In this document: positions 1,479 through 40,000 of the stretch, piece by piece
How positions within the stretch are numbered: position 1 is the first letter of the stretch
Layout: each line of letters opens with the position of its first letter
NCBI GenBank assembly: GCA_017527155.1
Contig: JAFXQI010000046.1
Location: 1-46,792 of the forward strand
Direction of reading: 5' to 3'
DNA: 46,792 nucleotides
Source: Kiritimatiellia bacterium
Lineage (GTDB): Bacteria > Verrucomicrobiota > Kiritimatiellia > CAIQIC01 > Lenti-01
The notes under the pieces: generated by a model
What the model saw: the letters and a program-made list of their open reading frames with translations, nothing else
Databases searched by the model: none
Told to the model about the DNA's origin: nothing
Translations under genes and position numbers: made by a program

Positions 1479-2272
1479 GGCGTTTCGTCCTTTTCTGTCA
1501 AAGGGGTGGGGCCGGCCTCGGCGTCCTCCGGCACGAGCAGGAGCGGATGGAGGGCGGCGGCGAAGTTGGCGATCTGCTGGAGGTGGGCGTCGCTGCCGGG
1601 GTCGCGCGGAGCGGAGAGCGCGATGTAGGCCCAGCGGTGGGAGACGCCGCGGAGGACGCGGTCGGTGGCCATCCAGACCATGCGCTGGACGTGGGACGCG
1701 GTCTCGCGCCCCTTGCCGACGAACCAGTAGGCGTAGTAGATGGTTTCGGTGCGCCCGTCGGCGCCGGTGCGGTTCATGTCCAGCACCATCACGTCCAGCG
1801 GCTCGCGCCCCCCGCCGAGCGGGATGCGCAGGAGCGTGTCGTTGACGATTTCGTACCCGGCCGCCGTCATGCACACCTGCGGACGGTGGATGCTGGAGCG
1901 GTCGTTGCCGCTGAGGACGATCGACGCGTGGACGGGCGCGGCGCCGTCGCGCAGGTAGTACTTGCGGACCAGCCCCGTGTCCGCCGGGAGCATCCGCTTC
2001 TCCGCGTGGTTCATGTACTGCAGCGGCTTGCCGCAGGCCGGGCACGGCGTCCCCGGCGGAACGTCCACGCAGACGCGCGCGCAGAGCTCGTCGGGGCAGT
2101 TGACCAGGTCGTGCCCGGTCCAGCCGGCGACGCGCTCCGGCAGGGCGAGCACGATGCCCGCCTCGTCGGAGTCCGCCACGCCGGTCCTGTTGACCATGAA
2201 CCAGCCGGCGACCGCCAGGACCGCGACTACGAAGAGACGCGCGGCAAGAAGATGTTTTTGGCTTTTGTCCAT
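1475..2272 (-). CDS. EpsI-like exosortase-associated protein (DUF3485)
   Basis: 265 residues. One N-terminal membrane segment (about residues 9-26, [20 protein letters not shown]) is followed by an exported domain with the HRPQVCM motif, the counterpart of the HRPxxCYP motif of EpsI/DUF3485 proteins. In this family the domain is found fused to, or directly behind, exosortases. A feature I do not know from the family is a five-cysteine insert at about residues 57-79 ([11 protein letters not shown], then CPACG), which looks like a metal or disulfide knot. The ATG at 2272 lies inside the exosortase gene (46-bp overlap); later starts would remove the membrane segment. The stop overlaps the epimerase start. 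The biochemical role of EpsI is not settled. Confidence 0.85.
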
Positions 2273-3192
2273 GTCGATGCCCAGTCCATGTTCAGCGCGC
2301 GGTCCAGCAGCAGGACCAGCGCGATGCTGATCAGGAAAATCGGATACCCCGAGTAATCGTGCCAGAGCCCCATCGCCAGCTCCTGCCCCCAGAAGCGCGC
2401 CACCACCACCACCAGCACGATGCGGCACACGTTCGCGACGATCGCCACCGGGATGCTCAGCAGAAACAGCGCCCACTTCTTCCACTGCGTCTTCTGGCTG
2501 TACCACGCGTAGAAGGCGATCAGCGCCGTCATCGCCAGCAGCGACCGCAACCCGCTGCATTCCGGCGCCACGTTGAAGCTGTTGCCGTCCGCCGCGTAGA
2601 GGCCCGAGCCGACCCGCTCCACCGCGATGCCGATGCCGTTGAGCGTCCACGCCGCCATCTTCGTCGCGAAGATGCGCAGCGGCGACGTCATGCTGTCGAT
2701 GAAGTTCAGCGGAATCGCGAGGACAAGATAGGCGCATGGGAAAATCGTCAGTTTCGCCACTTCCCACCCATACATCAGGAACGGCAACCCCCACAGCACC
2801 CCGATCAGCCCTGCCGCCGAGATGCGCGGCTGCTGCGCCAGCACCCCCACCCAGTGCAAAAGCAGCCCCGCCAGGAGCGGCAGCGCCCCGAGCCAATCCA
2901 CCCGCTTCGGCGCCGCCGCGAGCTTCTTCCGCTGCATCCAGAGCGCGAGCAGCGACGCCAGCGGCAGGAACATGCAGTACGCGAAATCATTGACCCACCG
3001 GCTCTTCAGCCACAGGAACAGCGAATTCCGGCACGTCGCCACCTCCTGGCTGTTCCCGTGCAGGTGGAAGAGGAAAAACAGCTCCCCGCACACCACCGCC
3101 CAGAACGCCAATTCCGTCCACGCGCCCCGTCCGAGTCCCGACCACCGGAACCCGCCGAGCCACTTGCCGAAACTGGAATCGCTTTTCTGCAT
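2227..3192 (-). CDS. xrt: Exosortase (cysteine transpeptidase of the PEP-CTERM system)
   Basis: 321 residues, mostly hydrophobic with about eight membrane segments. The exosortase catalytic triad is visible: Cys212 in APECSGLRS, Arg257 in NVCRIV and His278 in LWHDYSGYP. Exosortases cleave short C-terminal sorting signals (PEP-CTERM and variants) at the outer side of the inner membrane and pass the protein on to the cell surface. Start choice: ATG 3192 follows a -10 box (3200-3205) by 7 bp. The other in-frame ATG at 3204 lies within that -10 box, so it is unlikely to be used. No protein with an obvious PEP-CTERM tail is coded in the window. The subfamily (xrtA, xrtD and so on) cannot be fixed by eye. 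Confidence 0.92.
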
Positions 3193-3199
3193 CCCCTCC

Positions 3200-3229
3200 A
3201 CCATACCCCATCCCCCTCCCCCCTTGCAA
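3200..3229 (-). promoter_or_regulatory. Promoter of exosortase operon, leaderless
   Basis: TTGCAA (3224-3229), 18-bp spacer, TATGGT (3200-3205), then 7 bp to the ATG at 3192. The transcript should begin at or next to the start codon. The distance and box pattern recur at six other genes here. Confidence 0.6.
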
Positions 3230-7287: not shown

Positions 7288-7316
7288 TTGCATTTCCCCC
7301 CGTTTTCGCCATTCTC
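7288..7316 (+). promoter_or_regulatory. Promoter of mutL, leaderless
   Basis: TTGCAT (7288-7293), 17 bp, ATTCTC (7311-7316) or CATTCT one base earlier, then 7 bp to the GTG start at 7324. No Shine-Dalgarno site is present. Confidence 0.5.
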
Positions 7317-7323
7317 TCCCCTC

Positions 7324-9201
7324 GTGAGCGCCCCTCCCTCCAGCCCCGCCATCCGCCTGCTCCCCGACGCCGTGATCAACCAGATCGCCGCCGGCGAAGT
7401 CGTCGAGCGTCCCGCCTCTGTCCTCAAGGAGCTGGTGGAGAACTCCCTCGACGCGGGCGCGCGGCACATCGACGTCGAAGCCGACGGCGGCGGCGCCCGC
7501 ATGCTCCGCATACGCGACGACGGCTGCGGCATGGACCGCGACAACGCCCTCCTCTCCCTCGAACGCCATGCCACGAGCAAACTGCGCGCCCTCTCCGACC
7601 TCGACACGATCGCCACGATGGGCTTCCGCGGCGAAGCCCTGGCGGCCATTTCCGCCGTGTCGCAGTTCACGATGGTGACCCAGCGCGCGGGCGACCCCGC
7701 CGGCACCGAGATCCAGGTCAACGGCGGCTCCATCGCCGACGTACGCGACGCCGGCGCCCCGCCCGGCACCGAAATCACCGTGCGGAACCTCTTCTACAAC
7801 GTCCCCGCCCGCCGCAAGTTCCTGCGTTCCGCCGCGACCGAGTTCACCCACATCCGCCACGCCTTCACGCTGGAGGCGCTGGCGCATCCCGACGTCGAAT
7901 TCACCCTCACCGCCGACGGCGAAACCCTCCACCGCCTTCCCGCGGCCCCGACCCTGCTCGACCGCGTCCGCGACCTCTACGGCCGCGAACTCGCCTCCCA
8001 CCTGCGCGAAGTCCGCCACGCTTCGGGGGCCGTCTCCATCGGCGGCCTGGCGGGCCTGCCGCCGTTCAGCCGGATGGACCGCGAATGGCAGGTCGTGATG
8101 ATCAACGGCCGCCCCTCCGGCTCCCCGGTCATCAACTACGCCATCCAGACCGCCTACCGCGAGACCCTTCCCGGCGGCCGCTACGCCCCCCTCTTCCTGC
8201 AGATCGCCCTGCCCGCCGACCAAGTCGACGTCAACGTCCATCCGGCCAAGAAGGAAGTCCGCTTCCGCCATCCCACCGAAGTCCGCGACATCATCGTCGA
8301 AGCCCTCCGCCTGGCGATCGGCGGCTCCCCGCGCGAGCCCGCCCGCCCCATCGGCGAGTGGCGCCGCCGCGACGAAAAACCCGCCTACCCCGCCCCCTTC
8401 CCTCCCCCCCCTCCCCCCACCCCTGTCCCCGTTCCGCCGGGGCCGGCCCCGTCCGCCCCCCTCCCGCCCCCTCCCACCTTTTCCATCCAAACCGGCCTCG
8501 ACCTCCCGCCCGCCCCTCCTCCCGCCCCCTCCCCGTCCCCCGCCCCCCCTGTCCCCGTTCCGCAGGGGGCGCCCCCGTCCGCCCCCACCCCCACCCCCTC
8601 CCCCGTCCCTCCCCCCTCCACCCCCTGGTCCACCTTCCACATCCTCGGCCGCACCGGCCCCTACGCCGTCCTCTCGACCCCCGACGGCCTGGTCATCCTC
8701 GACCCCCGCTCCGCGCACGAACGCATCCTCTACGAGCGCATGCTCGCCGCCGCGACCGCGGGCGCCGTCCCCTCCCAGGGCCTCCTCCCGCCCGTCCCGG
8801 TGACCCTGTCCCCCACCCAGCACAACACCCTCCTGCGCCACCTTCCGACCCTGCGCGACATGGGCTTCGGCCTGAGCGAATTCGGCAGCGGCACCCTGCT
8901 GCTCGACGCCCTCCCCGCGGACCTTCCCCCCTCCGCGCCGCCGGCGGAACTCCTCTCCGACCTGGCCGACGCCCTGGCCCAGTCCGGCCGCACGGCGGCC
9001 CGCGACTGGGCGCGCCCGCTGATTGCCGAACGCGCCAGCCGCCTCGCCGTCGCCCGCGAACAACCCCTGACCGACCTCGAACTCGAGACCCTGGTCCGCG
9101 ACCTCTCCCGCACCGAGATGCCCTACACCTCCCCCCGCGGCAAACCCACCGTCATCCTGACCCCCCTCCGCGAACTCCACCGCAAATTCGGCCGCGAATG
9201 A
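7324..9201 (+). CDS. mutL: DNA mismatch repair protein MutL
   Basis: 625 residues. The N-terminal GHKL ATPase is complete: NQIAAGEVVERP, KELVENSLDAG, DDGCGM, TMGFRGEALAAI; then the transducer domain with NVHPAKKEVRF. Residues about 350-440 are a long Pro-rich linker. The C-terminal dimerisation domain (about 440-625) starts at STFHILGRTG. The nuclease motif DQHAxxExxxxE reads DPRSAHERILYE (residues 460-471), so the metal-binding His is Arg, and the CPHGRP-type motif reads SPRGKP (603-608). The endonuclease site therefore looks lost. GTG 7324 is set by the promoter 7 bp upstream; the frame also has TTG at 7288, but that is the -35 box. Its stop overlaps the next gene (ATGA). Confidence 0.95.
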   Translation: MSAPPSSPAIRLLPDAVINQIAAGEVVERPASVLKELVENSLDAGARHIDVEADGGGARMLRIRDDGCGMDRDNALLSLERHATSKLRALSDLDTIATMGFRGEALAAISAVSQFTMVTQRAGDPAGTEIQVNGGSIADVRDAGAPPGTEITVRNLFYNVPARRKFLRSAATEFTHIRHAFTLEALAHPDVEFTLTADGETLHRLPAAPTLLDRVRDLYGRELASHLREVRHASGAVSIGGLAGLPPFSRMDREWQVVMINGRPSGSPVINYAIQTAYRETLPGGRYAPLFLQIALPADQVDVNVHPAKKEVRFRHPTEVRDIIVEALRLAIGGSPREPARPIGEWRRRDEKPAYPAPFPPPPPPTPVPVPPGPAPSAPLPPPPTFSIQTGLDLPPAPPPAPSPSPAPPVPVPQGAPPSAPTPTPSPVPPPSTPWSTFHILGRTGPYAVLSTPDGLVILDPRSAHERILYERMLAAATAGAVPSQGLLPPVPVTLSPTQHNTLLRHLPTLRDMGFGLSEFGSGTLLLDALPADLPPSAPPAELLSDLADALAQSGRTAARDWARPLIAERASRLAVAREQPLTDLELETLVRDLSRTEMPYTSPRGKPTVILTPLRELHRKFGRE

Positions 9202-14080: not shown

Positions 14081-14109
14081 TTGCCCCCCGTCTTCCCCCG
14101 TGGCAAAGT
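14081..14109 (+). promoter_or_regulatory. Promoter of aldo/keto reductase gene, leaderless
   Basis: TTGCCC (14081-14086), 17 bp, CAAAGT (14104-14109), then 7 bp to ATG 14117. No Shine-Dalgarno site. Confidence 0.5.
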
Positions 14110-14116
14110 CTCCCCC

Positions 14117-15148
14117 ATGAACCTCGAAACCATCCCCCTCGGCCGCACCGGCATCACCACCCCCCGCAACGCCTTCGGCGCCCTCCCCGTCCAGCGCGTG
14201 CCGACCTCCGACGCCGTCCGCCTCCTCCGCCGCGCCCGCGACGGCGGCATGACCTACTTCGACACCGCCCGCGCCTACAGCGACAGCGAAGAAAAGCTCG
14301 GCCGCGCCTTCGGCGGCTCCTGGACCGGCCTCCGCATCGCCACCAAGACCATGGCCCGCACCCCCGCCGGCGTCCGCGCCGACCTGGAAACCTCCCTCCG
14401 CGCCCTCAAGACCGACTGCATCGACGTCTACCAGTTCCACTGCGCCCCCCGCTGCTGGCGTCCCGGGGACGGCACCGGCATGGTCGAAGAACTCCTCAAG
14501 GCCAAGACCGAAGGCAAAATCCGCCACATCGGCATCACCGCCCACCTCATCGCCGTCGCCGAAGAATGCGCCGGGTCCGGCATCTACGAAACCCTCCAGT
14601 TCCCCTTCTCCCACCTCGCCACGCCCCGCGAAGAAGCCCTCGTCCGGCGCTGCGCCGACCTCGGCGTCGGCTTCGTCGCCATGAAAGGCCTGGCCGGCGG
14701 ACTCATCCGCCGCGCCGACGCCGCGATGGCCTACATCCGCCAATTCCCCGGCGTCCTCCCCATCTGGGGCATCCAGCGCGAAACCGAACTCGACGAATGG
14801 CTCCGCTTCATGGACGCCCCGCCCGCCATGAACGCCGACCGCGCCGCCGCCATCGCCCGCGACCGCGAAGAACTCTCCGGCTCCTTCTGCCGCGGCTGCG
14901 GCTACTGCATGCCCTGCCCACAGGGAATCCAGATCAACAACTGCGCCCGCACCTCCCTTCTCCTCCGCCGCGCACCGTCCAAGGCCTGGCTCACCCCCGG
15001 GTGGCAGGCCGAGATGGCCAAGATCGACCATTGCACCCACTGCAACCGCTGCGCCTCGCGCTGTCCCTACGGCCTCGACACCCCGGCCCTTCTCCGCGCC
15101 AACCTGGAAGACTACCGCCGCGTCCTCTCCGGCCAAACCCGGGTCTGA
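14117..15148 (+). CDS. Aldo/keto reductase with C-terminal 4Fe-4S ferredoxin domain
   Basis: 343 residues. Residues 1 to about 250 form the TIM-barrel reductase with the catalytic set Asp and Tyr in FDTARAYSDSE, Lys in ATKTM and His in YQFHC. Residues about 250-343 hold two cysteine clusters: CRGCGYCMPCPQGI and CTHCNRCASRCPYG, the latter a classic CxxCxxCxxxCP iron-sulfur motif. This fusion is a known family of predicted oxidoreductases of the YakC/COG1453 type; the substrate is unknown. It probably couples an iron-sulfur electron path to a carbonyl reduction. The start is set by the promoter 7 bp upstream. Confidence 0.9.
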   Translation: MNLETIPLGRTGITTPRNAFGALPVQRVPTSDAVRLLRRARDGGMTYFDTARAYSDSEEKLGRAFGGSWTGLRIATKTMARTPAGVRADLETSLRALKTDCIDVYQFHCAPRCWRPGDGTGMVEELLKAKTEGKIRHIGITAHLIAVAEECAGSGIYETLQFPFSHLATPREEALVRRCADLGVGFVAMKGLAGGLIRRADAAMAYIRQFPGVLPIWGIQRETELDEWLRFMDAPPAMNADRAAAIARDREELSGSFCRGCGYCMPCPQGIQINNCARTSLLLRRAPSKAWLTPGWQAEMAKIDHCTHCNRCASRCPYGLDTPALLRANLEDYRRVLSGQTRV

Positions 15149-15207: not shown

Positions 15208-15236
15208 TTGACATCCCCCCGTTTCCCCGTCACACT
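15208..15236 (+). promoter_or_regulatory. Promoter with consensus -35, leaderless
   Basis: TTGACA (15208-15213), 17 bp, CACACT (15231-15236), then 7 bp to ATG 15244. It is the clearest case of the leaderless layout in the window. Confidence 0.65.
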
Positions 15237-15243
15237 CCCCGCC

Positions 15244-16155
15244 ATGAACATCCTCAAGACCGCCTCCTCCCGCACCACCCCCATCACCCGCGCCGGCCTC
15301 GACATCGCCGGGAGCCAACATCCCGGCATCGCCCTCGGTCTCGTTCCCCTCGTCCTCGGCGTGAGCGTCGCCGCGTTCACGGTGTTCGCCGCCACCGAGA
15401 CGGGACTCGCCATCGTCCGCGAACTCAAGCGCCGCCAGCGCCTCCGCGAAACGCTCCCGGAAAGCCCGTCCCTGCGCGGCGCCCCCACGCCCGCCGAACT
15501 CGCGGCCGACATCGGAATCCAGCCCCGCACCCTCGCCGTGCGCCTGCGCCTCGGCTCCCGCCTGGCCGACCTCGAACCCACGCTCGACCACTCGAAGCTC
15601 GGCTTCAAGAAACTCGGCAACGGCCAGAAACGCATCCACTCCCGCGCCCCCGGCATGAAGGGGTGGCTTGCCGACCGCCGCATCCCCGCCAACTATTCCA
15701 CCCTCGTCCGCTACAAGAAGCTCGCCCAGCGCCTCCGCCAGCTCCTCGCCCTCGACAACCGCCTCCCGCTCGAATGGCTTCTTCCCGGCGCCACGCCCGA
15801 CCGCGCCATTCCCGCCGACCTCCGCGAGCCATACGCGACCGCCCGCCGCCGTCTCGCACGCCTCCTGCGCGACCACCGGAACTTCTCGCGCCTGCGGAAG
15901 CACGTCGAAGAAAAGCTCGGCATCCCGCAGCTGCTGGGCCCCCGCCGCATCCGCCCCTCACGCGAGCGCCACACCAGACGCCCGGCGCGCCCCCTGCCGC
16001 CGCCGCCGCCGCCCCGGCCCGACCTCGTGGACGCGACCAAGCACGAACTCATCGGCTTCCTGCGCGAGAAGGAACTCTCTCCGAAACTCTCGCGCCTCCG
16101 CGACCAAGCCATCGACTGGTTCCGCGCGGTCCCCGAAGAGCATCCGGCACGATAG
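15244..16155 (+). CDS. Unknown membrane-anchored basic protein
   Basis: 303 residues, rich in Arg. One membrane segment (about residues 28-50, GIALGLVPLVLGVSVAAFTVF) follows a polar head. The rest is basic and helical: a possible helix-turn-helix at about 78-98 (TPAELAADIGIQPRTLAVRL), then a conserved-looking block (MKGWLADRRIPANYSTLVRYKK, LPLEWLLPG) and a Pro stretch near 255. The combination suggests a membrane-tethered nucleic-acid-binding protein, but no family is recognised. ATG 15244 is set by the promoter; an in-frame TTG at 15208 is part of the -35 box. Confidence 0.7.
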   Translation: MNILKTASSRTTPITRAGLDIAGSQHPGIALGLVPLVLGVSVAAFTVFAATETGLAIVRELKRRQRLRETLPESPSLRGAPTPAELAADIGIQPRTLAVRLRLGSRLADLEPTLDHSKLGFKKLGNGQKRIHSRAPGMKGWLADRRIPANYSTLVRYKKLAQRLRQLLALDNRLPLEWLLPGATPDRAIPADLREPYATARRRLARLLRDHRNFSRLRKHVEEKLGIPQLLGPRRIRPSRERHTRRPARPLPPPPPPRPDLVDATKHELIGFLREKELSPKLSRLRDQAIDWFRAVPEEHPAR

Positions 16156-22564: not shown

Positions 22565-23116
22565 TCACCCCCTCCGCCAAATCCACACCCGCGTCTTCCC
22601 GTACCTCCGATCGCGCACCAGCGTCCACCCCTCCGCCTCCGGCGGCTCCTCCCGCCCCTCCGTCTCGTACACGAAGATGCCGCCCTCCCGCACCCACCCG
22701 TTCGCCGCGAGCAGCCCCGCGATCCGCCCCGCGTATCCCCCCTCCGTCCCCTCCCGGTATGGCGGGTCCGCCATCACCAGATCGAACGCCCCCACCGCCC
22801 GTCCCTCCAGCCACCGAATCGCGTCGGCCGCCCGCACCCGGAACTCCCCCGGCGCTCCCAAATCGGCCAGATTCCGCTTCAGCACCCGCAGCACCGCCGG
22901 CGCGTTCTCCACCCACTCCACGTACGCCGCCCCCCGGCTCCACGCCTCCAGCCCCATCGCCCCGCTCCCCGCGAACAGATCCAGCACCCGCGTCCCCGGC
23001 ACGTACGCCGCCAGCGCCGAGAACACCGCCGCGCGCACCTTCTCCTGCGTCGGTCTCGCCCCCTCCGCCGGCGCCCGCAGGAGCCGCCCGCCCAGTTCGC
23101 CGCCGACGATTCTCAC
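22565..23116 (-). CDS. rsmD: 16S rRNA (guanine966-N2)-methyltransferase RsmD
   Basis: 183 residues. VRIVGGELGGRLL and RPTQEKVRAAVFSAL are the standard RsmD N-terminus; VLDLFAGSGAMGLEAWSRGA is the SAM site; VMADPPYREG is the N-6/N2 methylase DPPY motif. It methylates G966 of 16S rRNA. GTG 23116 overlaps the preceding hydrolase stop by four bases (GTGA). Confidence 0.95.
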   Translation of the reverse strand: MRIVGGELGGRLLRAPAEGARPTQEKVRAAVFSALAAYVPGTRVLDLFAGSGAMGLEAWSRGAAYVEWVENAPAVLRVLKRNLADLGAPGEFRVRAADAIRWLEGRAVGAFDLVMADPPYREGTEGGYAGRIAGLLAANGWVREGGIFVYETEGREEPPEAEGWTLVRDRRYGKTRVWIWRRG

Positions 23117-24081
23117 GACTCCGCCCTCCGTCCCGCCCCCCGCAGCGCCGCCGCCAGCCACCGGCACGTCTCCCGCGCCAGCGCGTCCTCGCATCCGCGG
23201 AATCCGTGTCCCGTCGCCGGCACCAGCCACGACGCGAACCGCGCCGACCGCGTACGCCGCGCCAAGATCGACAGCATCTCCCCCGGCGGCACCGGCGCGA
23301 ACTCCTCCTCCGCCCCGAACACCGCCAGCACCGGACACGCCACCCGCCGGAAGACCGTCAGCGGCCCGTCGTACCGGAACAATCCCGCCTCCGTCTGCCG
23401 CGGGTCCGCCACGCTCAAAAACCGCTTCGCCCCGAACCGCTCGTACAGCCCCGGCACCGGCGCCTCCGGCTTCCCCGCCGCCACCTGCCGCCGCGCCCAA
23501 TCCACGCGCGCCCCGAAGCGCCTCCCCAGCTGCCGCCGCACGATCGCGTGGTCGTCGGCGGGGGCCAGCAGCGCCACCGCCGTCCGCCCCGCCGGACGCC
23601 GCCGCTCCAGCCACCACACGCTCTTCTGGCACCCGGTACTGTGCCCCACCCACACCACCGTCCGGTGCCCCCGCCGCCGCCCGTACGCCGCCGCCGCATC
23701 CAGGTCCCGGAGCGTCTCCCGGAAATCCTCGTTCTCCGTCCCCGACTCCGCCCCCGCGTTGTTGAACGACAGCACCGAGAACCCGAATGCCGGCCCCGCC
23801 TCCAGGAACGCCTTCTTCAGCCGCGACCGGTAGAAATTGCTCCCCATCCCGTGCACGAAGCACAGCACCGGCGTTCCCTTCCCCCCGTCCCGCCAGAACC
23901 CGTCCAGCCGCCGCACGTGCCCCTTCCGGTCCGGCGCCGTCGCGAACGACACCAGCTCTCCCGCGCATTCCCATGCCGCGTCCTCCGCCGCCCCTTCCCG
24001 CTCCATGCCCTCCGGCCACTCCAGCGCCGCCGGCACTGCATGGGCCCGCGATTCATCCACGATATCCTTCGTCTTCTTCAT
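23113..24081 (-). CDS. Alpha/beta-fold hydrolase
   Basis: 322 residues. The fold shows in LCFVHGMGSNFYRSRL (oxyanion loop), VVWVGHSTGCQKSVWWL (nucleophile elbow G-H-S-T-G, Ser), CPVLAVFGAEEEF (acid strand) and PATGHGF (His). The layout recalls DUF1749-type serine hydrolases. No signal peptide, so cytoplasmic; substrate unknown. ATG 24081 follows a -10 box by 6 bp and has no independent ribosome site, so a leaderless message is likely. Co-transcribed with rsmD. Confidence 0.88.
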   Translation of the reverse strand: MKKTKDIVDESRAHAVPAALEWPEGMEREGAAEDAAWECAGELVSFATAPDRKGHVRRLDGFWRDGGKGTPVLCFVHGMGSNFYRSRLKKAFLEAGPAFGFSVLSFNNAGAESGTENEDFRETLRDLDAAAAYGRRRGHRTVVWVGHSTGCQKSVWWLERRRPAGRTAVALLAPADDHAIVRRQLGRRFGARVDWARRQVAAGKPEAPVPGLYERFGAKRFLSVADPRQTEAGLFRYDGPLTVFRRVACPVLAVFGAEEEFAPVPPGEMLSILARRTRSARFASWLVPATGHGFRGCEDALARETCRWLAAALRGAGRRAES

Positions 24082-24087
24082 GCCCCC

Positions 24088-24116
24088 ATGCTATCCCCCT
24101 CCTCCTCCTCCCGCAA
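24088..24116 (-). promoter_or_regulatory. Promoter of hydrolase-rsmD operon, leaderless
   Basis: TTGCGG (24111-24116), 17-bp purine-rich spacer, TAGCAT (24088-24093), then 6 bp to the ATG. Confidence 0.5.
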
Positions 24117-27623: not shown

Positions 27624-27768
27624 CCCCCGATTCCGGGGGAGAACGGAGAAAAACGTTCATGGAGGGGAGGATGGGGAAAAACCGGGCAGAACGTCCATGT
27701 TTTCCGTATTCCCGAATGCAGGAGAAGCCCCGGGTGCAGGGGGGCGCAGCGGGCCGGGCCGGGAATGC

Positions 27769-30243
27769 TCAGAGGTAGCGGCCGGTGAGGGAGGCGGGGA
27801 CGGAGGGAAGGGCGGAGGGGGGACAGGAGGCGACCAGGCGGCCGCCGTCGGCGCCGCCGCCGGGGCCCAGGTCCAGAACCCAGTCGGCCGCGCGGATGAC
27901 GTCGCGGTCGTGCTCGATGACCACCACCGTCGCGCCGTTCGCCACGAGGCGCCGGAAGACGTCCAGCAGGGTGCGGACGTCGAGGGGATGCAGGCCGATG
28001 GTCGGTTCGTCGAAGACGAACAGGGTGTCCGCCTGGCTGCGGCCCATCTCGCCGGCGAGCTTCAGCCGCTGGGCTTCCCCGCCGGACAGGCCCGGGGTCT
28101 GCTCGCCGAGGGTCAGGTAGCCGAGCCCGAGGTCGTGGAGGGTCTGCAGGCGCTGGCGGACGAGACGGAGTCCGGCGCAGGCGCGCAGGGCGCCGTCGAC
28201 GTTCATCGCCATGAGGGCCGGCAGGGAGACGCCGTCGCGGAGGACGGCCGAGGCGGCCTTGCCATAGCGGGAGCGGCGGCAGTCGGGGCAGGGAATGTCG
28301 ACGTCGGGCAGGAACTGGATGTCGAGGCTGATTTGCCCGGTGCCGTCGCAGGTGGGGCAGCGGAGGGAGCCGGTGTTGTAGGAGAAGTCGCCGGCCTTGA
28401 GTTTGCGGGTTTTGGCGTCGGGGGTGCGGGCGTAGACGCGGCGGAGTTCGTCGTGGATGTCGGCGTAGGTGGCGACGGTGGAGCGGATGTTGATGCCGAT
28501 GGGCGTGGCGTCGATCAGCTGCACGCGCGCGATGCCGGGGGCGTCGAGGGAGCGGACGTGCGGCGGCAGGGGGCGTCCGGCGGCCGCGGCGGCGAGGGCC
28601 GGCACGAGGCTTTCGAGGACGAGGGTGGTCTTGCCGGAGCCGGACACGCCGGTGACGACGGTGAGGGCCCCCTTCGGGAAGGCGACCTTCAGGGGCTTGA
28701 CGGTGTGGATGGCGGCGGTGGAGAGGCGGATTTTCGGGAGGCGGGAGCACTCGACTGCATTCGACTGCAATCGATTGCAGTCGGGCTGCGGCGCGAGGAA
28801 CGGCCCGATGAGCGAGTCGGGGTTCTGGGCGAGGTCGGCGGGGGTGCCCTGGGCGAGGAGGCGGCCGCCGTCGGCGCCGGCGCCGGGGCCGAGTTCGAGG
28901 AGCCAGTCGGCGTGGGCGAGCACGGCGGGGTCGTGGTCGACGACGAGGACGGAGTTGCCGTCGGCGACGAGGTCGTCCATGACGCCGCACAGGCCTTCGA
29001 GGTTCGCCGGATGCAGGCCGATGGAGGGCTCGTCGAGGACGTACAGGACGCCGGTGGTGCGGTTGCGCACGGCGCGGGCGAGCTGCACGCGCTGGCGTTC
29101 GCCGGTGGAAAGGGTGGCGGCGGCGCGGTCGAGGGAGAGGTAGGCGAGGCCGAGGTCGAGGAGCCGGCGGGAGGTGTCGTGGAAGGATTCGCAGATGCGC
29201 TCCGCCATCGGGCGCATGGGGGCGGGCAGCGAGGCGGGGACGCCGCGGACCCAGGCGTCGGCTTCGGCGAGGGTCATGCGGCAGGCGGCGTCGAGGGGGA
29301 TGCCCCGCAGGAGCGGCCCGCGGGCGCGGTCGGAGAGGCGGGTGCCGGAGCAGGCGGGACAGGGGCCCTCCTTGAGGAATTTGGCGACGCGCTTCATGCC
29401 CTTCTCGTCCTTGACGTTCTTGAGGGCGTTTTCGACGGTGTAGACGGCGTTGAAGAAGGTGAAGTCCATCTCGCCGCTCTCGCCGGTCTTCATCTGGTAG
29501 ACCATGTGGCGCTTCTCGGGCGGGGCGTGCAGGACGATGTCGCGTTCGCGGTCGGTCAGGTCGCGCCAGGGGACGTCCGTGCGCACGCCCATGTCGCGCG
29601 CCATGTCCTTCATCAGCGACCACATCAGCGACTGCCAGGGGGCGACGGCGCCTTCGTCGATCGTGAGCGAGTCGTCGGGCACCAGCGTCGCCATGTCCAC
29701 CTCGCGCACGACGCCCGTGCCGTCGCACCGCGGGCACGCCCCCTGCGAATTGAAGGCGAGTTCCTCGGAGCCCGGCGCCATGAAGCGCTCGCCGCATTCG
29801 GGGCAGGCGAGTTCGCGTCCGGCGGCGACGTCGAGCGAGGGCGGCACGCGGTGGCCGTTGGGGCAGCGGTGGGCGGCGAGGCGCGAGTACATGAGGCGGA
29901 GCGAGTTCAGCAGTTCGGTCATGGTCCCGAACGTGGACCGGATGCCCGGCACGCCCGGCCGCTGGTGGAGGGCGAGGGCGGCGGGCACGTGCAGGACGTC
30001 CTCGACGTCGGCGCGGGCGGCCTGGGTCATGCGGCGGCGGGTGTAGGTGGAGAGGGATTCGAGGTAGCGGCGGGAGCCCTCGGCGTAGACGACGCCCAGC
30101 GCGAGGGACGACTTGCCGCTGCCGGAGACCCCGGCAACGCCGACGATGCGGCCCAGCGGGATGTCCACGTCGAGGTTCTTGAGGTTGTTCAGGCGCGCGC
30201 CGCGCACCTGGATGGAAAAGGCTGTCGGGGAAGGCTTGTGCAT
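27769..30243 (-). CDS. UvrA2-like excinuclease ABC subunit A paralogue
   Basis: 824 residues, shorter than UvrA (about 940). Two ABC ATPase halves: Walker A GVSGSGKSSLA near residue 39 and GVSGSGKTTLV near 530; signatures LSTGERQRVQLARA and LSGGEAQRLKLAGEM; Walker B VLYVLDEPSIGLHP and LFVFDEPTIGLHP. Zinc-type pairs CPECG, CPRCDGTG and CPTCDGTG, CPDC are kept. The size fits class II UvrA (UvrA2/DrrC-like), linked to damage tolerance or drug resistance. The linker between halves contains an odd DNA palindrome (28763-28782). ATG 30243 is set by a -10 box 7 bp upstream. Confidence 0.92.
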   Translation of the reverse strand: MHKPSPTAFSIQVRGARLNNLKNLDVDIPLGRIVGVAGVSGSGKSSLALGVVYAEGSRRYLESLSTYTRRRMTQAARADVEDVLHVPAALALHQRPGVPGIRSTFGTMTELLNSLRLMYSRLAAHRCPNGHRVPPSLDVAAGRELACPECGERFMAPGSEELAFNSQGACPRCDGTGVVREVDMATLVPDDSLTIDEGAVAPWQSLMWSLMKDMARDMGVRTDVPWRDLTDRERDIVLHAPPEKRHMVYQMKTGESGEMDFTFFNAVYTVENALKNVKDEKGMKRVAKFLKEGPCPACSGTRLSDRARGPLLRGIPLDAACRMTLAEADAWVRGVPASLPAPMRPMAERICESFHDTSRRLLDLGLAYLSLDRAAATLSTGERQRVQLARAVRNRTTGVLYVLDEPSIGLHPANLEGLCGVMDDLVADGNSVLVVDHDPAVLAHADWLLELGPGAGADGGRLLAQGTPADLAQNPDSLIGPFLAPQPDCNRLQSNAVECSRLPKIRLSTAAIHTVKPLKVAFPKGALTVVTGVSGSGKTTLVLESLVPALAAAAAGRPLPPHVRSLDAPGIARVQLIDATPIGINIRSTVATYADIHDELRRVYARTPDAKTRKLKAGDFSYNTGSLRCPTCDGTGQISLDIQFLPDVDIPCPDCRRSRYGKAASAVLRDGVSLPALMAMNVDGALRACAGLRLVRQRLQTLHDLGLGYLTLGEQTPGLSGGEAQRLKLAGEMGRSQADTLFVFDEPTIGLHPLDVRTLLDVFRRLVANGATVVVIEHDRDVIRAADWVLDLGPGGGADGGRLVASCPPSALPSVPASLTGRYL
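28763..28782. repeat. Perfect 20-bp palindrome in the UvrA2 linker
   Basis: GACTGCAATCGATTGCAGTC, preceded by a further TCGACTGCA half-site at 28751-28759. It codes for part of the stretch CNRLQSNAVECSR between the two ATPase halves. Confidence 0.9.
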
Positions 30244-30250
30244 GGCCGCG

Positions 30251-30279
30251 ACTATAGGCTTCCGCGGCGCCCCTGGCGA
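30251..30279 (-). promoter_or_regulatory. Promoter of UvrA2-like gene, leaderless
   Basis: TCGCCA (30274-30279), 17 bp, TATAGT (30251-30256), 7 bp to the ATG at 30243. The -35 is one base from TTGCCA. Confidence 0.5.
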
Positions 30280-31082: not shown

Positions 31083-34000
31083 CTACCGGCCCATGTGGCG
31101 GGTCGGGAGCGTGTAGAAGTCGGTCGGCGAGTAGGTCCAGACCCACTCCACCGTCGCGCCATTCTTGCCGTTGCCGCCGGCGGAGATGAGCACGAGCATG
31201 TCGTTCGGGTGGATGGGCGTGCCCGTCACTTCCAGGCTGTTCTTGTTGTAGCGCCAGACGCCCTGCCCATCGCAGTACATCGTCGAATTCCCGCGCACTT
31301 CCTTCGTTGCGCTGTCGATCACGTACAGCTTGTCCGCGTCCACCCAGTTGCCCGCCTTCATCTGGCCCGGCTGGGGCGTGCCATCCGAGTCGGTCTTGAC
31401 CAAGCCCAGCTGCTTCGGATGCACGCTCACCGGCAGGTTCAGCGACAGCGTGTTGTACGTCCCCGCCGCCGCCGTGACGGACTGCGTGAATTTGCCGGCC
31501 GCCGGCCCGTTCGTCGGCACCTGGAGTATCGGGTGCCACATCATGGCCTTCACGGACCGGCTGGCCGAGGCCCGCGCGCCGTCGTAGTCCGCATGGTCCA
31601 GCCACCACCCGGACGTCACTTCGCCGGCGTCGTTCGTGACGGCCTTCGGCAGCACAATCCCGAACGGCTTCGCGAAGAACCCGTCCGCCTGGAGCGTGTC
31701 GGTGACGTCGGTGCCCGTGGAGTTGTACCACTTGCCGTCGGCCCCGAAGAAGTACCACTCGCGCACGCTCGCGCTCGTCCCGGGCTGGTAGAACTCGATG
31801 ACGGCCGCGCTGTTGGTGTCGGCGACGGATTTGCCGCCCGGCCACATGCCGGTGGCCGTCCCGAAGACGCCGCGGAACGTGTTGGTCCACGGCACGCCCT
31901 GGAGGCTCACGTAGTTGAAGCCTTCGGACAGCACCACGTTGTTCATCGAGTACACTTCCTCGCTCGCGAGCGGGTACTGCTTCTCGCTGGTCCCCGGCTT
32001 GGTGTCCTGCCAGCGCCCGGCGTAGCTCGCGCGGTAGAAGCGCATCCGGCCGGGCGTATCCAACCCCGCGTCCGCCTGGTAGTTCCAGTTGGTCTTGGAG
32101 GTGCCGGTGTTGTCCGCGGTCGAGGCCATGTTCCACTGCTCCGTGCCGGTCTCGCTGAAGCTCGCCGCGTCGCGGTAGATCAGGTCGTAGTACTTCTTGA
32201 CCTCGCCCTTGCCGTCCTTCATCCCGGCGCCCATCCAGTAGAGGACGGCGCCCTTCTTCGGCGCGTCGGTGCCGGTGATCTTGGCCATGCCGACCGTGTT
32301 GGTCGCCTTGCCGGAAACCAGAGCGCCCACCGCCGTGTTGATGTCCGCGCTCGCCCGGATCAGTCCCTGCGTGACGGCGAACTTGATCGTGTTGTTCGTC
32401 GCCCAGCTCAAGGCGTTCGCGGGGCCTTCGTTGCCGGCCTTGTCCACGCCGACGACCACGAACAGGTATTCACGGTCGAAGTCCAGGTCGTACACCCGCA
32501 CCGACGAGGTCCCCACGGTCCCCAGCGTGTCGTACTTCGACTTCCCGGCCGACGGATCTGAAATCGGTGCGTCGTTCGTCACCGCGAGCCAGCCCGCGGC
32601 CTCCGTGCCGAAGGAATCGTCGTCGATGTAGTCGTTGTAGATGACATCCGCGGGGGACTGCCCGCCAGTGGCGGCCGCTTCGACCTCCTGCGGATCGTAC
32701 TCGCGGTAGTACACCTTGTACGTCAGCCACGGCGAGAGGATGTCGGTGTCCGCGCGGCCCTTGGCCTTCGCATCCGCCTTCACCGCGTCCGGAATCTTGT
32801 CGTAGTTGTCCTTGTCGCCTTCCGGATCGTCCGGACCGACCGACGCCGCGTTGACCCAGGTGATGTCCATCTGCGTCGTCGGGTCGTCCACCTCGTCGGT
32901 GCTGGCCCCGGTGCCGGTGCCCTTGAGCCGGACCGCGGTCGGCTTGGTGAAGTCGAGCGCCAGCGGGACGTTCGCGGCGGCCCCGGCGAGCGCGTCGCCG
33001 GCGCGGTCCGCGTCCTTGTCGACGGCGAACAGCTGGTTGTTGCCGAAGCCCTGGTCGATGGCGAGGCCGGTAAGGGTCTTGGTGACCTTGTGCTCGGTCG
33101 TGTTGGTGGTGGTGCCGGTCAGATCGGTCCCTTCGGCGACTCCGGGGGTCGTCCCCGGCGCCCCCAGGCGGTACCCGGCGATTCCGGCGACCTTGATGTC
33201 GTTCCCGGCCGTCCCGAAGCCCGCCGGTTCCGGATCGACGGCCTCGGTCCACGCCACCGTCACGCTCGACAGGCTCTGCTTCCACGGCGCGTTGTCGCGC
33301 GTGATCTCCCCGGACGCCACCACCTCCCCGTTCAGCCAGACGCCGGCGGGCGCTTCCGGCGCCGTCGTGTCGTCGTCGCGCACCCGGAGGACCGGCCCTT
33401 CCAGACGCGCGTGCGCCTGGTCCGAAGGCCGGTTCGTGTCGGCGTCGTAGGCCTCGACCAGCACGCGGAAATCGAGCGAGGACTCTCCGGCGGGCAGCAG
33501 CACGCCGACCTCGTTGGTCTCCATGCCGTCCGGCCAGTACCACGTCTGCGGCACCGCCGCCGTGCCACCGCGCGTCGTCCTCGACTTCGAGCTCTTGCTT
33601 TCGTCGAAGTGGGTCGCGAGGTTCGTCAGGACCGTCGCGGAGTTGGACAGGACCATGGTCGTGTTCGTCACGACCATCGTGTCGCCGAACCCGTTCAGGA
33701 CGGTCTGCGTCGTCCGGTTCCCGCGTTGCAGGCCGGAGATGGAGACCCCGGTTCCGCTCTGGAGGGCGTCGCCGACGTTGGCCATCAGGTAGAACTCGCG
33801 GCGCAGCTCCCCGTCGTAGATCAGCTGCACCCGGTCGGACGCCGTGTCGCTGGCGGTGAGGGTCCGCACCTCGTAGTCCGACTTGGCGCTCCAGGCCGCG
33901 TTGCTGATGTTGTTGAGGGCCGTGACGACCGAGTTGGAGCCGACGAACACGCCCTTGAGCGAGCCGCTGGTGCGCATCGCGGGGGCCGTCGTGTCGTTGT

Positions 34001-37000
34001 CCATGAATTTCACGGTTCCCAACTGCGCGGACAGGGACAGGTCGTCCCCGTTCCGGTCGTCGTCGAGGTCGGTGAGGGTCGCGTTGACGGCCATGTCGGC
34101 GGTCCAGGCGGCGAACTGGTCCTGGACGAACGTGTTGGCCCACAGCGCGGAGAGGTCGTAGTGGAACGTGTTGGTGGCGGCGGGGAGGCCGGCGGCGCCC
34201 TCCGTGACGTCGGCGCCGGAGTAGGCGACGGACTTGGCGGCCCCGCCCTCCGTGTAGCCCAGCGCGAGCGCGGTGGTCGTCCACCCGCTCTGGTCGTACC
34301 CGTCGATGTCCAGGTACGCGAGCGTCTGCGAGTCCCGCTTCGCCTCCTCCATCTGGTGGTCCGTGACCACGATCTGCACGCTCGTCCCGCTGCCGTTGTA
34401 GGCCTGCCCGGACCGGTTCCCCAGGCGGATGCCGACCGGACCGCCGAACTTGGCGCCCAGCGAAGGCGCCTGGGTGTCGTCGTCGTACAGCTCGAAGCCC
34501 TTCTCGACCGTCACCGGCAGCGCGTCGTCGGTCCGGTCGCGGTCGTAGTCGTGGACCGTGCTCGCCAGCACGTACTCCCGGCTGCCCGAACCCGTCAGCT
34601 TCTCCGAGAGCGTCAGGTCCTGCTTGGGCACGTCGGCGGTCTGCAGCGAGAGCTTCGCGCCCCGTTCGCCGTTGGAGAACTCCGTCGTCTCCGCCCCCCA
34701 CGTCGCCACCTGCACGGAGACGTTGTCGACCGCGATTTCAGTCCCCCCGGCCGTTTCCTGCGCGATTTCGACTTCCACGCTGCGCACCAGCGTGCTGTCC
34801 GCGGACCACGGACCGATCTCGTGGCGCCGCCAGCCGACCACCGGCTCGCAGGGGAACACCTTTTCGAGCAGCGTGCTGCCGCCGGAATCCTTCAGCCGCA
34901 CGGTCGCGGCCAGGCCGTTCGCCCCGCCGCTCCCGGAGGCGACGGTGGCGCGCGTTTCGAACACGCCGCTGACGGTCACGCCCGACACCTGGGCCGCCGT
35001 CATGCCCTCCAGGGAGGCGGCGAACGTCTTCCGGGCCGAGGAAGCCGTGTCGTCGCCGCCGGCCAGCTTGAGCACGTGCCCGTGGTTGCCGGTGCCGGTC
35101 GCCTCCTCCACCGTGGCGCCCGTCAGGGTCCACGTCGTGGGGGCGGCCTCGAAGTCGCCGTCCGCCAGGTGCGCGTACGCCGCCTTGCGGATCCTGGAGA
35201 GGGTGAAGGCCCCGGACGCGAACACGCCGGAATGCGCCGTGTCGGCCTCGGGATAGGACAGCGAGTACGTCGGTGCCTTGTCGCCGGTCAGCCACAGCCC
35301 CGACTTGTCCGTGTCGTATCCCGTCGGCTCCCCGTCCACGACCTCCAGCGCGTTCTCCCACGTGTGGTGCCGCAGGTCCCCGTCCGTCACGTCCATCCCC
35401 CGCGGCGTCATCGTGATGCCGAGCAGCTTGACCTTGTTGATGCCCCAGTTCCCGCCGCCGTTCGCCCCGTAGGCGTACAGCCGGTACCGCCACGTCGTCC
35501 CCTCCGCGTTCTCCGTGCCGGCCCAGTTCATCACCACGTTCTTGATTGTCACCTGGTTCGCGTCCGTCGAAGAGTCCGTCATCTTTTCGACCACCAGGTC
35601 CTCCACCAGCGGATGTTCCGTGTTGTACGAGTCCTGGAGCACCACGCTCACGTCCGTCAGCAGGAAGCCCTGCGACCCGTTGACGCCGGTGGCCTCCCAC
35701 GTCACCGTGAAGTTCCCCGCCTGGTCGGTCGGCAGTTCGAAGCTCACCACCTCGTAGTTCTTGTACTTCGCCGCCGCGGACTCCGCGAAGTCGGCGCTGT
35801 TGTGGGTCTGGACGACGGTCCGCGCCCCCGCCCCGATCCGGTACCCGACCGTCAGCGACGCCCCCGCCTTGGGTTCCCCGATCCGTCCCACCCGGTACTG
35901 CACGCGCGTCATCGCCCTGCCGTTCGAGTTCGGCTGGAAGGACGGGCTTGCGAGCGACGCCGACCCGCCCGTGCTTTCCAGCGTGAAGCGCGGGATCCCG
36001 CCTACCTTCTCGAACACCCCGCCCGCCACGTCCCAGACCGGATCCTTCTGCCCGTCGGAGGTCACCGCCGCCAGCGTCGTCACGTTGGCCGCCTCCTGGA
36101 CCGTCAGCGTGTACTTCGTCGGCCCCGTCCCCGTCACGCGGTTGTCGAACTGCAGCGTGTCCGCCGTCCACCGCGTCCCGTTCTCCCCGCTCACGTCGAA
36201 CTGGAAGTATTTCGCCCCCGCCGCCGTCCGGTACGTCGCCCCCTGCATCCCGCCTGCCAGTTGCATGTAGCGCATGCTCATGGCGCTCCAGTCCTGACCA
36301 TCCGGCACGGTCCCGCGTGAGTCCAGCCACGTCGCGCTCTCGCTCGAGTCGCTCGGCGACCCCACGCTCCACGCCGTCATGTTCTCGGCCGAAATCCCCT
36401 TCAACCCCGAGTTCGTCGCCCAGTCGGCGGGGCTGGCCGTCTTCCCCGTCCATTCCCACGACCCCAGCGCCCCGAACTCCACGTAGTTCGTCCCCGACCC
36501 CAGCAGCGCGTAGCCCGGGCTGACCGGCGCCGTCGCGTCGTCGTCCGTCAGCAGGAGCGTGCCGAAGGTGACCTCGGCGTCGGCCTGGTCGCCGTCGCGG
36601 TCGTTGTCGCAGTCCCAGGCGTGGAGCTGGACGAGGTTGGTCACGCCGTCGCTGTGGTGGCCCATGTAGTCGAGGAGGTTGGGGACGCCGAAGAGCGCGC
36701 CGAGGCTGTCGGCGGTGACGGTGCCGAAGTCCCAGGCGAGGATGGTGTCCAGGCCGGTGCCGAGGCCGGTGGTACTGCCGCCGCGGCGGGTCAGGGTGCT
36801 CTTTCCGGAGGCGTAGGCCGCGGTGTTCTCGGCGGAGGTGGCCCACCCGTCGTCCGCGGGCTCGTAGTAGGTCTTGCCGGCCGTGACGGCGGTGTCGGCG
36901 GTCGCCGCGTACGTCCCGCCGGCCCACTCGTACCAGCCCTGCGCCGACGGATCGCCCGAGGGCGACTCCACCGCCGCGTACCCCGTCGCGTTCCAGCTCC

Positions 37001-40000
37001 GCGCCCGGAACGCCGTGTTCGTCAGCGTCCGCGTCAGCCGCGCCCCGCCGTACTCGGTCGTCACGGCGGTCGTCGCGGCCGCCCCCAGCTGCAGGCCGCT
37101 GGTGGTGTGCAGGTCGTAGGCGTTGAAGAGGAACGTCAGGGGCAGCCCGCCGGCGAGCATCGCGTCCGTCAGCTGGTACGTCACCCCCTGCCCCGTCCCT
37201 TCCAGGCGCGGCAGCAGCTTGTTCCCGCCGTGCATCGCCGTCCAGTCCCGTGCCTCCGCCTGCGTGACCGCCTGCGTCGCGACCACCAGCGACGGCGCGA
37301 ACGCCTCCCCGTCGTCGGCGGCCGACCACCGCGTCGCGGAAGCCACCGGCCCTTCGCTGTCGTCGTCGCGCACCGGAATGTGGATCAGGCGGTTCGTCGT
37401 GATGTTCCGCGCGTAGCTCGGCCCGTCGTTGCACGAGCCGCTGGACTCGTCGGTGTCGGCGGAATAGTGGGCATGGCTGTGTCCCTCCGAGGGATTCGAG
37501 TCGTCGTGCCATTCCTCGCCGCGCATCCACCCGTCGGGGACCGTGTTCCCGTCGCCGTAGGCGTTGTCGTCCTCGGCGGAGACCGTCAGGTACAGCGACA
37601 CGTCCGGATCGTAGGCCGGCAGCTTGAACGCCTGCGAGACGAAGTTCGTGATGCACGGCACCCCCGCGTTCGCGTCCGTCCCGTGCGTCGCGTCGTCCCA
37701 CCGCGTCTGGCTGGGCAGGAACGGCAGGTCCTTGTCGTACACGAAGGTCCAGCCGGAGGTCGTGGTCTTCCCGCCGTCCACCGTCGGCAGCTCCAGCGTC
37801 GCGTTCCACTCCCAGTCGATTCCCTCGGCCTGCAGGGTCGGCCGGGCCGGATACTGGTGCGTCGTGTCCACCAGCATCAGGTCCCAGTTCGGGCTGACGC
37901 GCCCGAAGGGTTTCGGCGGCGTGTCCCCCGTCTCGCCGAGGATGTTCCAGGTGAAGGCGCCCTCGCCGCCGCCCGGCGTGTAGCCGTCCAGCCCGAGTCC
38001 CTGGGAGACGCGGGCGGCGTAGCGCGTCGTCGCCGTGTAGCCGCTGTCCCACGAATGGTTCGTCGCGTAGACCCCGCTCGGGTCGTTCCATTCCAGCACG
38101 AAGCCGAACGTCGGCGCCGTCCCCGAACTGTACACCTCGTCCACCACCGCCAGCGCGTCCCCGCTCGCCTCCACGTCATCGCGGTACCCGTCCGTGTTGT
38201 CCAGGAACTTGGCGACCTCCGTCCCCACGTACAGCAGCTTCGGCTCCGGCCCGTCCAGGTCCTTCTGCCCCTCGACGCCGTAGCGGCGGATCGTCCCGGC
38301 GGAAAGCTGCCCGCTGTCGTCGCGCGCCCGCACCCGCCACCAGAACTCCGTCCCCGTCGTCTTCGGCCGGTAGCTCGTGTTGCCGGCCCCCTTGAGGTTG
38401 ATGCGGTAGAGGACCTTGCCGTTCTCCGTCCCGCCGCCGAGGCCGTTGAGCGTCTCGCTGTCCTCGGCCAGCTCGAACAGGTATCCCGTCACGAACCCCT
38501 TCGCGTCCTGGTCGCTGCTCTGCGTCCACTCCAGCGTCGGGCTCCCGTGCCCGCTCGTGGCCCCCGAGAACGCCGGTTCCGTCGGCAGCCGGTTCGCGGC
38601 CACGCCGGCGGCGTCGAAGCCCACGTCCGCCCAGAAGTTCACCTTCTTGTCCACCAGCCCCTCGTCCCACGCGCCCAGGTCCGCGCCCGCGTCGTTCACC
38701 CCGTACGGCACGAACTCCATCGCGTCCACGGCCGCGCTCGTCCCCTCCCCGATGTCCACCGTCGCCTTCGTGTCCTGGTTCCACCCCTTCGCGTTGGCGA
38801 ACGTCGCCACGCTGAACCGCCCCGTCGTCACCGCGCTCCCGGCCGCCGTCAGGCCCAGGTCCGCCCGCGCCACGCGCCATTCGATGCACGGGTCCGTCGC
38901 GGCCCCGGCCGCCGCCACGCTCCACCCCTCCGTCGGCGGCGCGTACCACTTCGCCCCGTCCTCCGCGTACATTTCCACCTGCCACGTGTTCTCGCTGCCC
39001 CCCACCCAGTGCACCGCCATCTGGCGCGACGCGTACCGCTCCGCCGCCGTCCCGTGGTACCCGTCCCCGAACGTCGTCGCGCTCTCGTCCCCCAGCCAGT
39101 TCATCGCCGTGCTCCCCGCGTCCAGCCGCGTGTCCACCCCCACCGCGACGTACGCGTCCTGCAGGTCGATCGTCTTGCCGGCCGCCGCCGCCGCCTGCCG
39201 GCCCAGCCGCACCAGGAAGTACACCCACGTGTCGTCCGCCTTCACCCGGAACTCGTCCAGGTCCCCTGCCAGGCACGCGTCCGAATTCTTCCGCAGGTCC
39301 CCCTTCTTGTCGTTCCACACGAACTCCCCGTCCGACACGTCCGCGCTGTTCCACGTCGCCGCCGCCGTCCCCTCCCAGTCGCTCCCGTCCCCGTCGATCT
39401 CCGGCATCGCCGCCGACCCCGCCGCCGTCGTCGCGTTCGCCGTCCGCCGTCCCGCCGGCGACCCGCCCAGCGTCGAATAGTACCCGTTGTTCGCCGTGAA
39501 GATCGCGTAGTCGTACCGCGTGCTCGCGCTCAGCCGCGTGTCCGCGAACTCCGTCCCCGTCCCCCGGTAGATCACCGTCGCCGTGTGCGTGCTGAAGGCG
39601 AACGTCTGCCCCACCGAGTACGTCGTCCCCTGCGCCGGTTTGAGGTTGGCGACCGATGCCGCCGCCGAACTCGACAGCCGCACCACCAACACCTCGTCGA
39701 ACGTCCGCCCCCCCGCCGAGTACGGCGTCCACGTCAGGTTCACCTTCGTCGCCCCCGCCGCCGTCGCGCTGAACGCCGCCGGCGCCGTCAGCGCGCTCAG
39801 CTCGTACGTGTGCTTCGTGTACGCCGCGTCCGTGTGGTCCATCGAATACATCGTCGTCCCCCCGCCGCTCACCGCCCCGAACCCGTACAGCGGCGTCGTC
39901 GCCACGCTCTCGATCTGGTGCCGCCCGTGCCACACCGTCACCGTGTCGCTCTCCTCCTTCCCGGCGTACGTCGCCTCCGTCGCCGCCGCCTCGAACGCCG

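Follow-up and report, generated by a model that had tools for sequence, protein, structure and literature searches.

Six genes in a stretch of DNA from a gut bacterium carry a pair of promoter-like boxes whose downstream member ends only 6-8 bp before the start codon (Table 1), and this raises the question whether their messages begin at the start codon itself and lack a leader. The window, by which we mean the whole analysed stretch of 46,792 nucleotides, is an entire contig (C104) of a metagenome-assembled genome (MAG) with 114 contigs, 3.23 Mb and a GC content of about 65-72%. Its source is a high-GC, metagenome-derived gut bacterium of the class Kiritimatiellae (Verrucomicrobiota-related); the MutL protein encoded in the window shares 96% identity with the MutL of RUG11196 (G001), which belongs to the same genus, and the next closest relatives of this MutL stem from Kiritimatiellae and Verrucomicrobia MAGs. 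The genes of the neighbourhood are ordinary ones, for an exosortase, MutL, an aldo/keto reductase, nucleoside phosphorylases, HisG and a UvrA-like ATPase. On the reverse strand, a single open reading frame spanning some 4,760 codons (31083-45362) probably encodes a giant surface protein; fibronectin type III and purple acid phosphatase N-terminal domains lie close to its start.

Table 1. Genes with start-adjacent box pairs in the window, their boxes and an upstream element (nats, score of the two-box model).
Feature	Position	Strand	Remarks
Exosortase EpsH family gene, leaderless-type	2227..3192	-	Coding-potential gene call
-35 box TTGCAA, exosortase gene	3224..3229	-	Spacer 18 to -10 box
-10 box TATGGT, exosortase gene	3200..3205	-	7 bp to ATG 3192; 6.8 nats
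mutL, DNA mismatch repair protein MutL, leaderless-type	7324..9201	+	GTG start; coding-potential gene call
-35 box TTGCAT, mutL	7288..7293	+	Spacer 16 to -10 box
-10 box CATTCT, mutL	7310..7315	+	8 bp to GTG 7324; 4.3 nats
Gene for aldo/keto reductase with 4Fe-4S domain, leaderless-type	14117..15148	+	Coding-potential gene call
-35 box TTGCCC, aldo/keto reductase gene	14081..14086	+	Spacer 17 to -10 box
-10 box CAAAGT, aldo/keto reductase gene	14104..14109	+	7 bp to ATG 14117; 6.2 nats
15244 gene, 303 aa, genus-specific family, leaderless-type	15244..16155	+	Coding-potential gene call
-35 box TTGACA, 15244 gene	15208..15213	+	TTGAC or TTGC in ~30 paralogues
-10 box CACACT, 15244 gene	15231..15236	+	Spacer 17, 7 bp to ATG; 8.8 nats; paralogues CAnnCT or TAnACT
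Weak match TTTGCAATCACGTGAAT to genus-specific element TTTTGGAAACAGGAAAA	15186..15202	+	Score 16.4; 57 bp before ATG 15244
Alpha/beta hydrolase gene, probable leaderless-type	23113..24081	-	Start by coding potential only, 24036
-35 box TTGCGG, hydrolase gene	24111..24116	-	Spacer 17 to -10 box
-10 box TAGCAT, hydrolase gene	24088..24093	-	6 bp to ATG 24081; 6.1 nats; start less certain than the other five
Gene for UvrA-like ABC ATPase, leaderless-type	27769..30243	-	Gene call
-35-like box TCGCCA, UvrA-like gene	30274..30279	-	Spacer 17 to -10 box
-10 box TATAGT, UvrA-like gene	30251..30256	-	7 bp to ATG 30243; 6.4 nats

All six box pairs proposed in the first-pass annotation are present, with the correction that the -10 box of mutL is better read as CATTCT, the original ATTCTC being one base out of register. 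A gene caller relying on coding potential only chose the starts at 3192, 7324, 14117, 15244 and 30243 unaided, and preferred GTG 24036 over ATG 24081. When a two-box model trained outside the window was applied, the six sites scored 4.3-8.8 nats and the remaining genes of the window at most 2.1. Since 0.9% of random ATGs reach at least 4 nats, five matches among 23 independently called starts correspond to a p of about 1e-6. The genes had also been described as lacking a Shine-Dalgarno (SD) site at the usual distance, and indeed five of them have no match of at least four bases, while the GGAGG of the exosortase gene lies 2-3 nt from the ATG, too short a distance for a regular SD site. Genes with leaders in the same window keep their ribosome sites, as had been noted, with SD matches of 5-7 bases at 1478, 11823, 17124 and 27487. 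The further suggestion that the pattern fixes start codons holds for five of the sites; the start at 24081 is uncertain and would add about 33 residues outside the orthologue alignment. The mutL gene starts with GTG, yet a genome-wide peak for GTG is absent. In this genome, promoter spacers often consist of G or C tracts (GGGGGGAGGGGG, CCCCCCG), for example at 3205-3229 on the reverse strand and at 7294-7323.

The positional signal was followed genome-wide in 796 genes on 1.33 Mb of the 3.23-Mb MAG, the starts being set from coding potential alone. Relative to these starts, TAnnnT peaks at -13, TTG at -36 and SD words at -10 to -13. At -13, [TC]AnnnT is found in 35 of 360 genes without an SD site, compared with about four per position elsewhere, and in 2 of 258 genes with a strong SD site. 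A positional check of this kind had been proposed at the outset, and the -10 box does peak at -13/-12 where ribosome sites are lacking and is missing at these positions from genes with a strong SD site. When all genes were used, a two-box EM settled on the SD motif AAGGAG; the fit was therefore redone on genes without SD sites, which yielded the boxes TTG[AC]C and [TC]AnnnT with a spacer of 17 bp in 70-75% of the sites and a gap to the start codon of mostly 6-8 nt, reaching 9-10 nt at roughly a quarter of them. For a held-out test, the model was trained on half of the genes without SD sites, the window being excluded, and a threshold of 4 nats was set: 17% of the other half passed, whereas the rates for SD genes and shuffles were 1.2% and 0.2%, beside the above-mentioned 0.9% for random ATGs. 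With one gene per protein family, the threshold was passed by 29 of 295 genes without and by 1 of 221 genes with an SD site (shuffles, 0.1-0.5%). Two candidate signals were dropped. A C at -1 before the ATG (40 of 47), considered as a start-site signature, occurs at the same 77% in SD genes, and GAAA at -44, considered as a general upstream element, disappeared with one gene per family and thus belongs to the element of the 15244 family described below.

Promoter-anchored tests gave a matching picture. Among 111 intergenic sites of the untrained pattern TTGnnn-17-TAnnnT, an ATG follows 6-8 nt downstream in 39 cases where 6.4 are expected (p about 2e-18), and sites with a CAnnnT box yield 37 such cases with 7.5 expected. 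In the same untrained intergenic test, reversed boxes, ATnnnA boxes and spacers of 12 or 22 bp left the ATG count at background. Downstream of strong intergenic promoters as scored by the model, there are 66 ATGs at a distance of exactly 7 nt, with a background of about 8, and no peak is seen for GTG. Over the whole genome the box pattern occurs 169 times compared with 24 times for its reverse, and the corresponding counts in a high-GC Luteimonas genome, used as a control, are 30 and 28. Class-wide counts of the box pattern vary with base composition, and only loose use was made of them.

The signal recurs in relatives. In the held-out contrast, 22 of 100 genes without SD sites passed versus 0 of 51 SD genes in the sister species, and 9 of 89 versus 0 of 44 in another genus of the family (G006); the genes of G001 and G006 were called with a trained model. 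At individual loci, the UvrA-like gene keeps both boxes in the sister species (L229) with a changed spacer, the region upstream of the exosortase gene is identical there (L249), and CATTCT is kept before mutL (L142). Over a wider range, TAnnnT lies 6-8 nt before a plausible mutL start at 20 of 31 loci of the class versus 4 of 20 outgroup loci (p = 0.004), a comparison of phylogenetically non-independent loci with class labels taken from record titles. Beyond the sister species, neither the exosortase gene (3192) nor the hydrolase gene (24081) keeps its boxes at the corresponding start, and for 24081 no conservation was seen. All of the approximately 30 readable paralogues of the 15244 gene, from two species, retain the TTG[AC] box, the [CT]AnnCT box and the distance to the ATG, at protein identities down to about 45-55% and with varying spacers.

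The 15244 family (loci L112-L141) deserves separate consideration. It is genus-specific: the genome under study has about 42 matches and the sister species 41, and a further 10 in G003 are weak. Many copies have a leaderless-type promoter of their own. Comparison with Pfam, NCBIfam, PADLOC and PHROGs yielded no identity for the protein. Upstream of the 15244 promoter lies a weak match to an element, TTTTGGAAACAGGAAAA, with the variants TTTGAGATTACGGAAAA and TTTGCAATTACGGAAAA, which almost always precedes an ATGAA by 56 bp and often has a GGAAAA-n-TTTTCC dyad over the -35 position. There are 50 exact occurrences of TTTGNRANCANGAAA in the genome under study and 54 in that of the sister species, and other relatives have no more than two; the reversed pattern is found in neither of the first two genomes. 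The element is dispersed over about 50 places in G000 (e.g., L312:1500, L086:8138 and L063:5755). In the scanned G000 sample, 31 copies precede frames of at least 150 codons and 40 precede short frames, the low-score end including chance matches. In three pairs with short frames compared between the sister species, indels break the frame after the ATG and the ATG is retained; folding of the regions downstream of the element revealed no clear difference between copies with short and long frames. Tentatively, the copies might constitute a regulon in which the leaderless AUG itself, whether or not a protein follows, serves a function as part of the RNA start. Another weak copy precedes hisG (27660-27716, reverse strand), with a 61-aa frame running into the start of hisG, which has a good SD site, and four near-identical promoter-start units, TTGATGCTCTTTGAGAATGGGATACACT...ATG, stand in tandem within 1.7 kb at G000:C59:78445-80123 (L065, L066).

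What, then, accounts for the start-adjacent boxes? Chance matches, picked from GC-rich sequence by a reader in search of them, come to mind as the boxes are loose (three of six bases each) and one -35 box reads TCGCCA. The held-out model, the SD-gene control, the shuffles, the random ATGs and the reversed and mis-spaced patterns all reject this explanation, as does the conservation of sites in relatives, and we regard it as hardly credible. Scarcely more plausible is that the genome-wide peak stems mainly from the expanded 15244 family and not from a general mode: a promoter common to all of about 42 matches could indeed produce a peak, but the signal persists with one gene per protein family, is also seen with TA-type boxes, which are rare in the family, and is present in G006, a genus without it. 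The box peaks, their absence from SD genes, the promoter-anchored ATG peak and the conservation make leaderless transcription from start-adjacent promoters the best explanation of both the six sites and the genome-wide signal, with a probability that we estimate from the sequences at roughly 0.88.

What is observed is the boxes themselves, the fixed distance at which they precede the ATG, their confinement to genes that lack SD sites, and their conservation; where transcription starts and how the ribosome acts we infer from the established geometry of sigma-70 promoters and from what is known of leaderless translation. A sigma-70 -10 box whose end lies 6-7 bp ahead of the A in the start codon sets +1 on this A or one base before it. 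Housekeeping-sigma promoters of the type found here (TTG[AC]C, 17 bp, [TC]AnnnT) would let the polymerase begin on this A or no more than about 3 nt away, and a message with +1 on or next to the A leaves no room for an SD site. The 5'-terminal AUG of such a leaderless messenger would be recognised by the ribosome via initiator tRNA without SD pairing. As leaderless initiation depends strongly on codon-anticodon pairing, the ATG-only peak fits a leaderless reading. Papers cited in PMC10783764 describe how bacterial ribosomes carrying initiator tRNA accept a 5' AUG directly. Alternatively, transcription could begin 3-8 nt before the start codon and leave a stub leader. The flexible choice of start sites by sigma-70 and the fitted gaps of up to 9-10 nt speak for such messages; the commonest gap of 6-7 nt, however, puts the canonical start on the A of the ATG or one base before it, and we consider short leaders unlikely, if well worth keeping in mind. 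Even with leaderless transcription as the preferred explanation, a second promoter further upstream may give any single gene a leader.

From a mixture weight of 0.19-0.23 among genes without SD sites and their share of about 44% of the non-redundant set, the leaderless mode would be used by about 8-10% of genes, beside the commoner SD initiation. The SD genes and an intact anti-SD sequence in the 16S rRNA of a family member (G006) indicate that both modes coexist; a search for the 16S 3'-end pattern gave a match in G006 only and none in the MAG of the window. The first-pass annotation had spoken of a common mode, which is apt for a large minority (8-10% of genes and about a third of canonical intergenic promoters) and does not extend to the main mode. 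Kiritimatiellae, an almost uncultured class of gut and sediment bacteria, would thereby join the lineages in which SD-led and leaderless genes coexist. Gene finders that consider SD sites only are expected to misplace starts here, an error that a rule placing the -10 box 6-8 nt upstream of ATG would remedy. The sharp preference for ATG amounts to a testable statement on which 5'-terminal codons these ribosomes accept; mycobacterial leaderless genes use GTG too.

The proposed start mode is of a known kind, in a class for which it is apparently undescribed: within the literature searched, an anti-SD survey alone names both leaderless genes and Kiritimatiellae. The TA-led, leaderless genes of Zheng et al. 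(2011; PMC3160421), which make up about 20% in Actinobacteria and up to about 40% in Deinococcus-Thermus and were catalogued in further groups as well, resemble those described here in having TAnnnT about 12-13 nt before starts without SD sites, in coexisting with SD genes and in the weak middle positions of the box that are typical of high-GC genomes. They differ in that here C is nearly as frequent as T at the first position of the -10 box and a clear TTG[AC]C -35 box persists; Verrucomicrobia, Planctomycetes and Chlamydiae are not mentioned in the text of that study. The leaderless transcriptome of Mycobacterium tuberculosis and the leaderless bacterial group of GeneMarkS-2, as cited in PMC9581028, likewise combine SD-led with leaderless genes and have a -10 box adjoining the start codon, but concern a distant phylum, and a preference for ATG alone at the promoter level was seen in the genome studied here. 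A related phylum or class is represented by Akkermansia muciniphila (Verrucomicrobiota), in which Cappable-seq located about 10% of mapped start sites at annotated start codons (PMC4782308). That organism belongs to a different class and its RNA was measured, whereas our estimate derives from sequence alone; its leaderless fraction is close to the one estimated here. The signal in Kiritimatiellae supports leaderless expression being widespread around Verrucomicrobiota.
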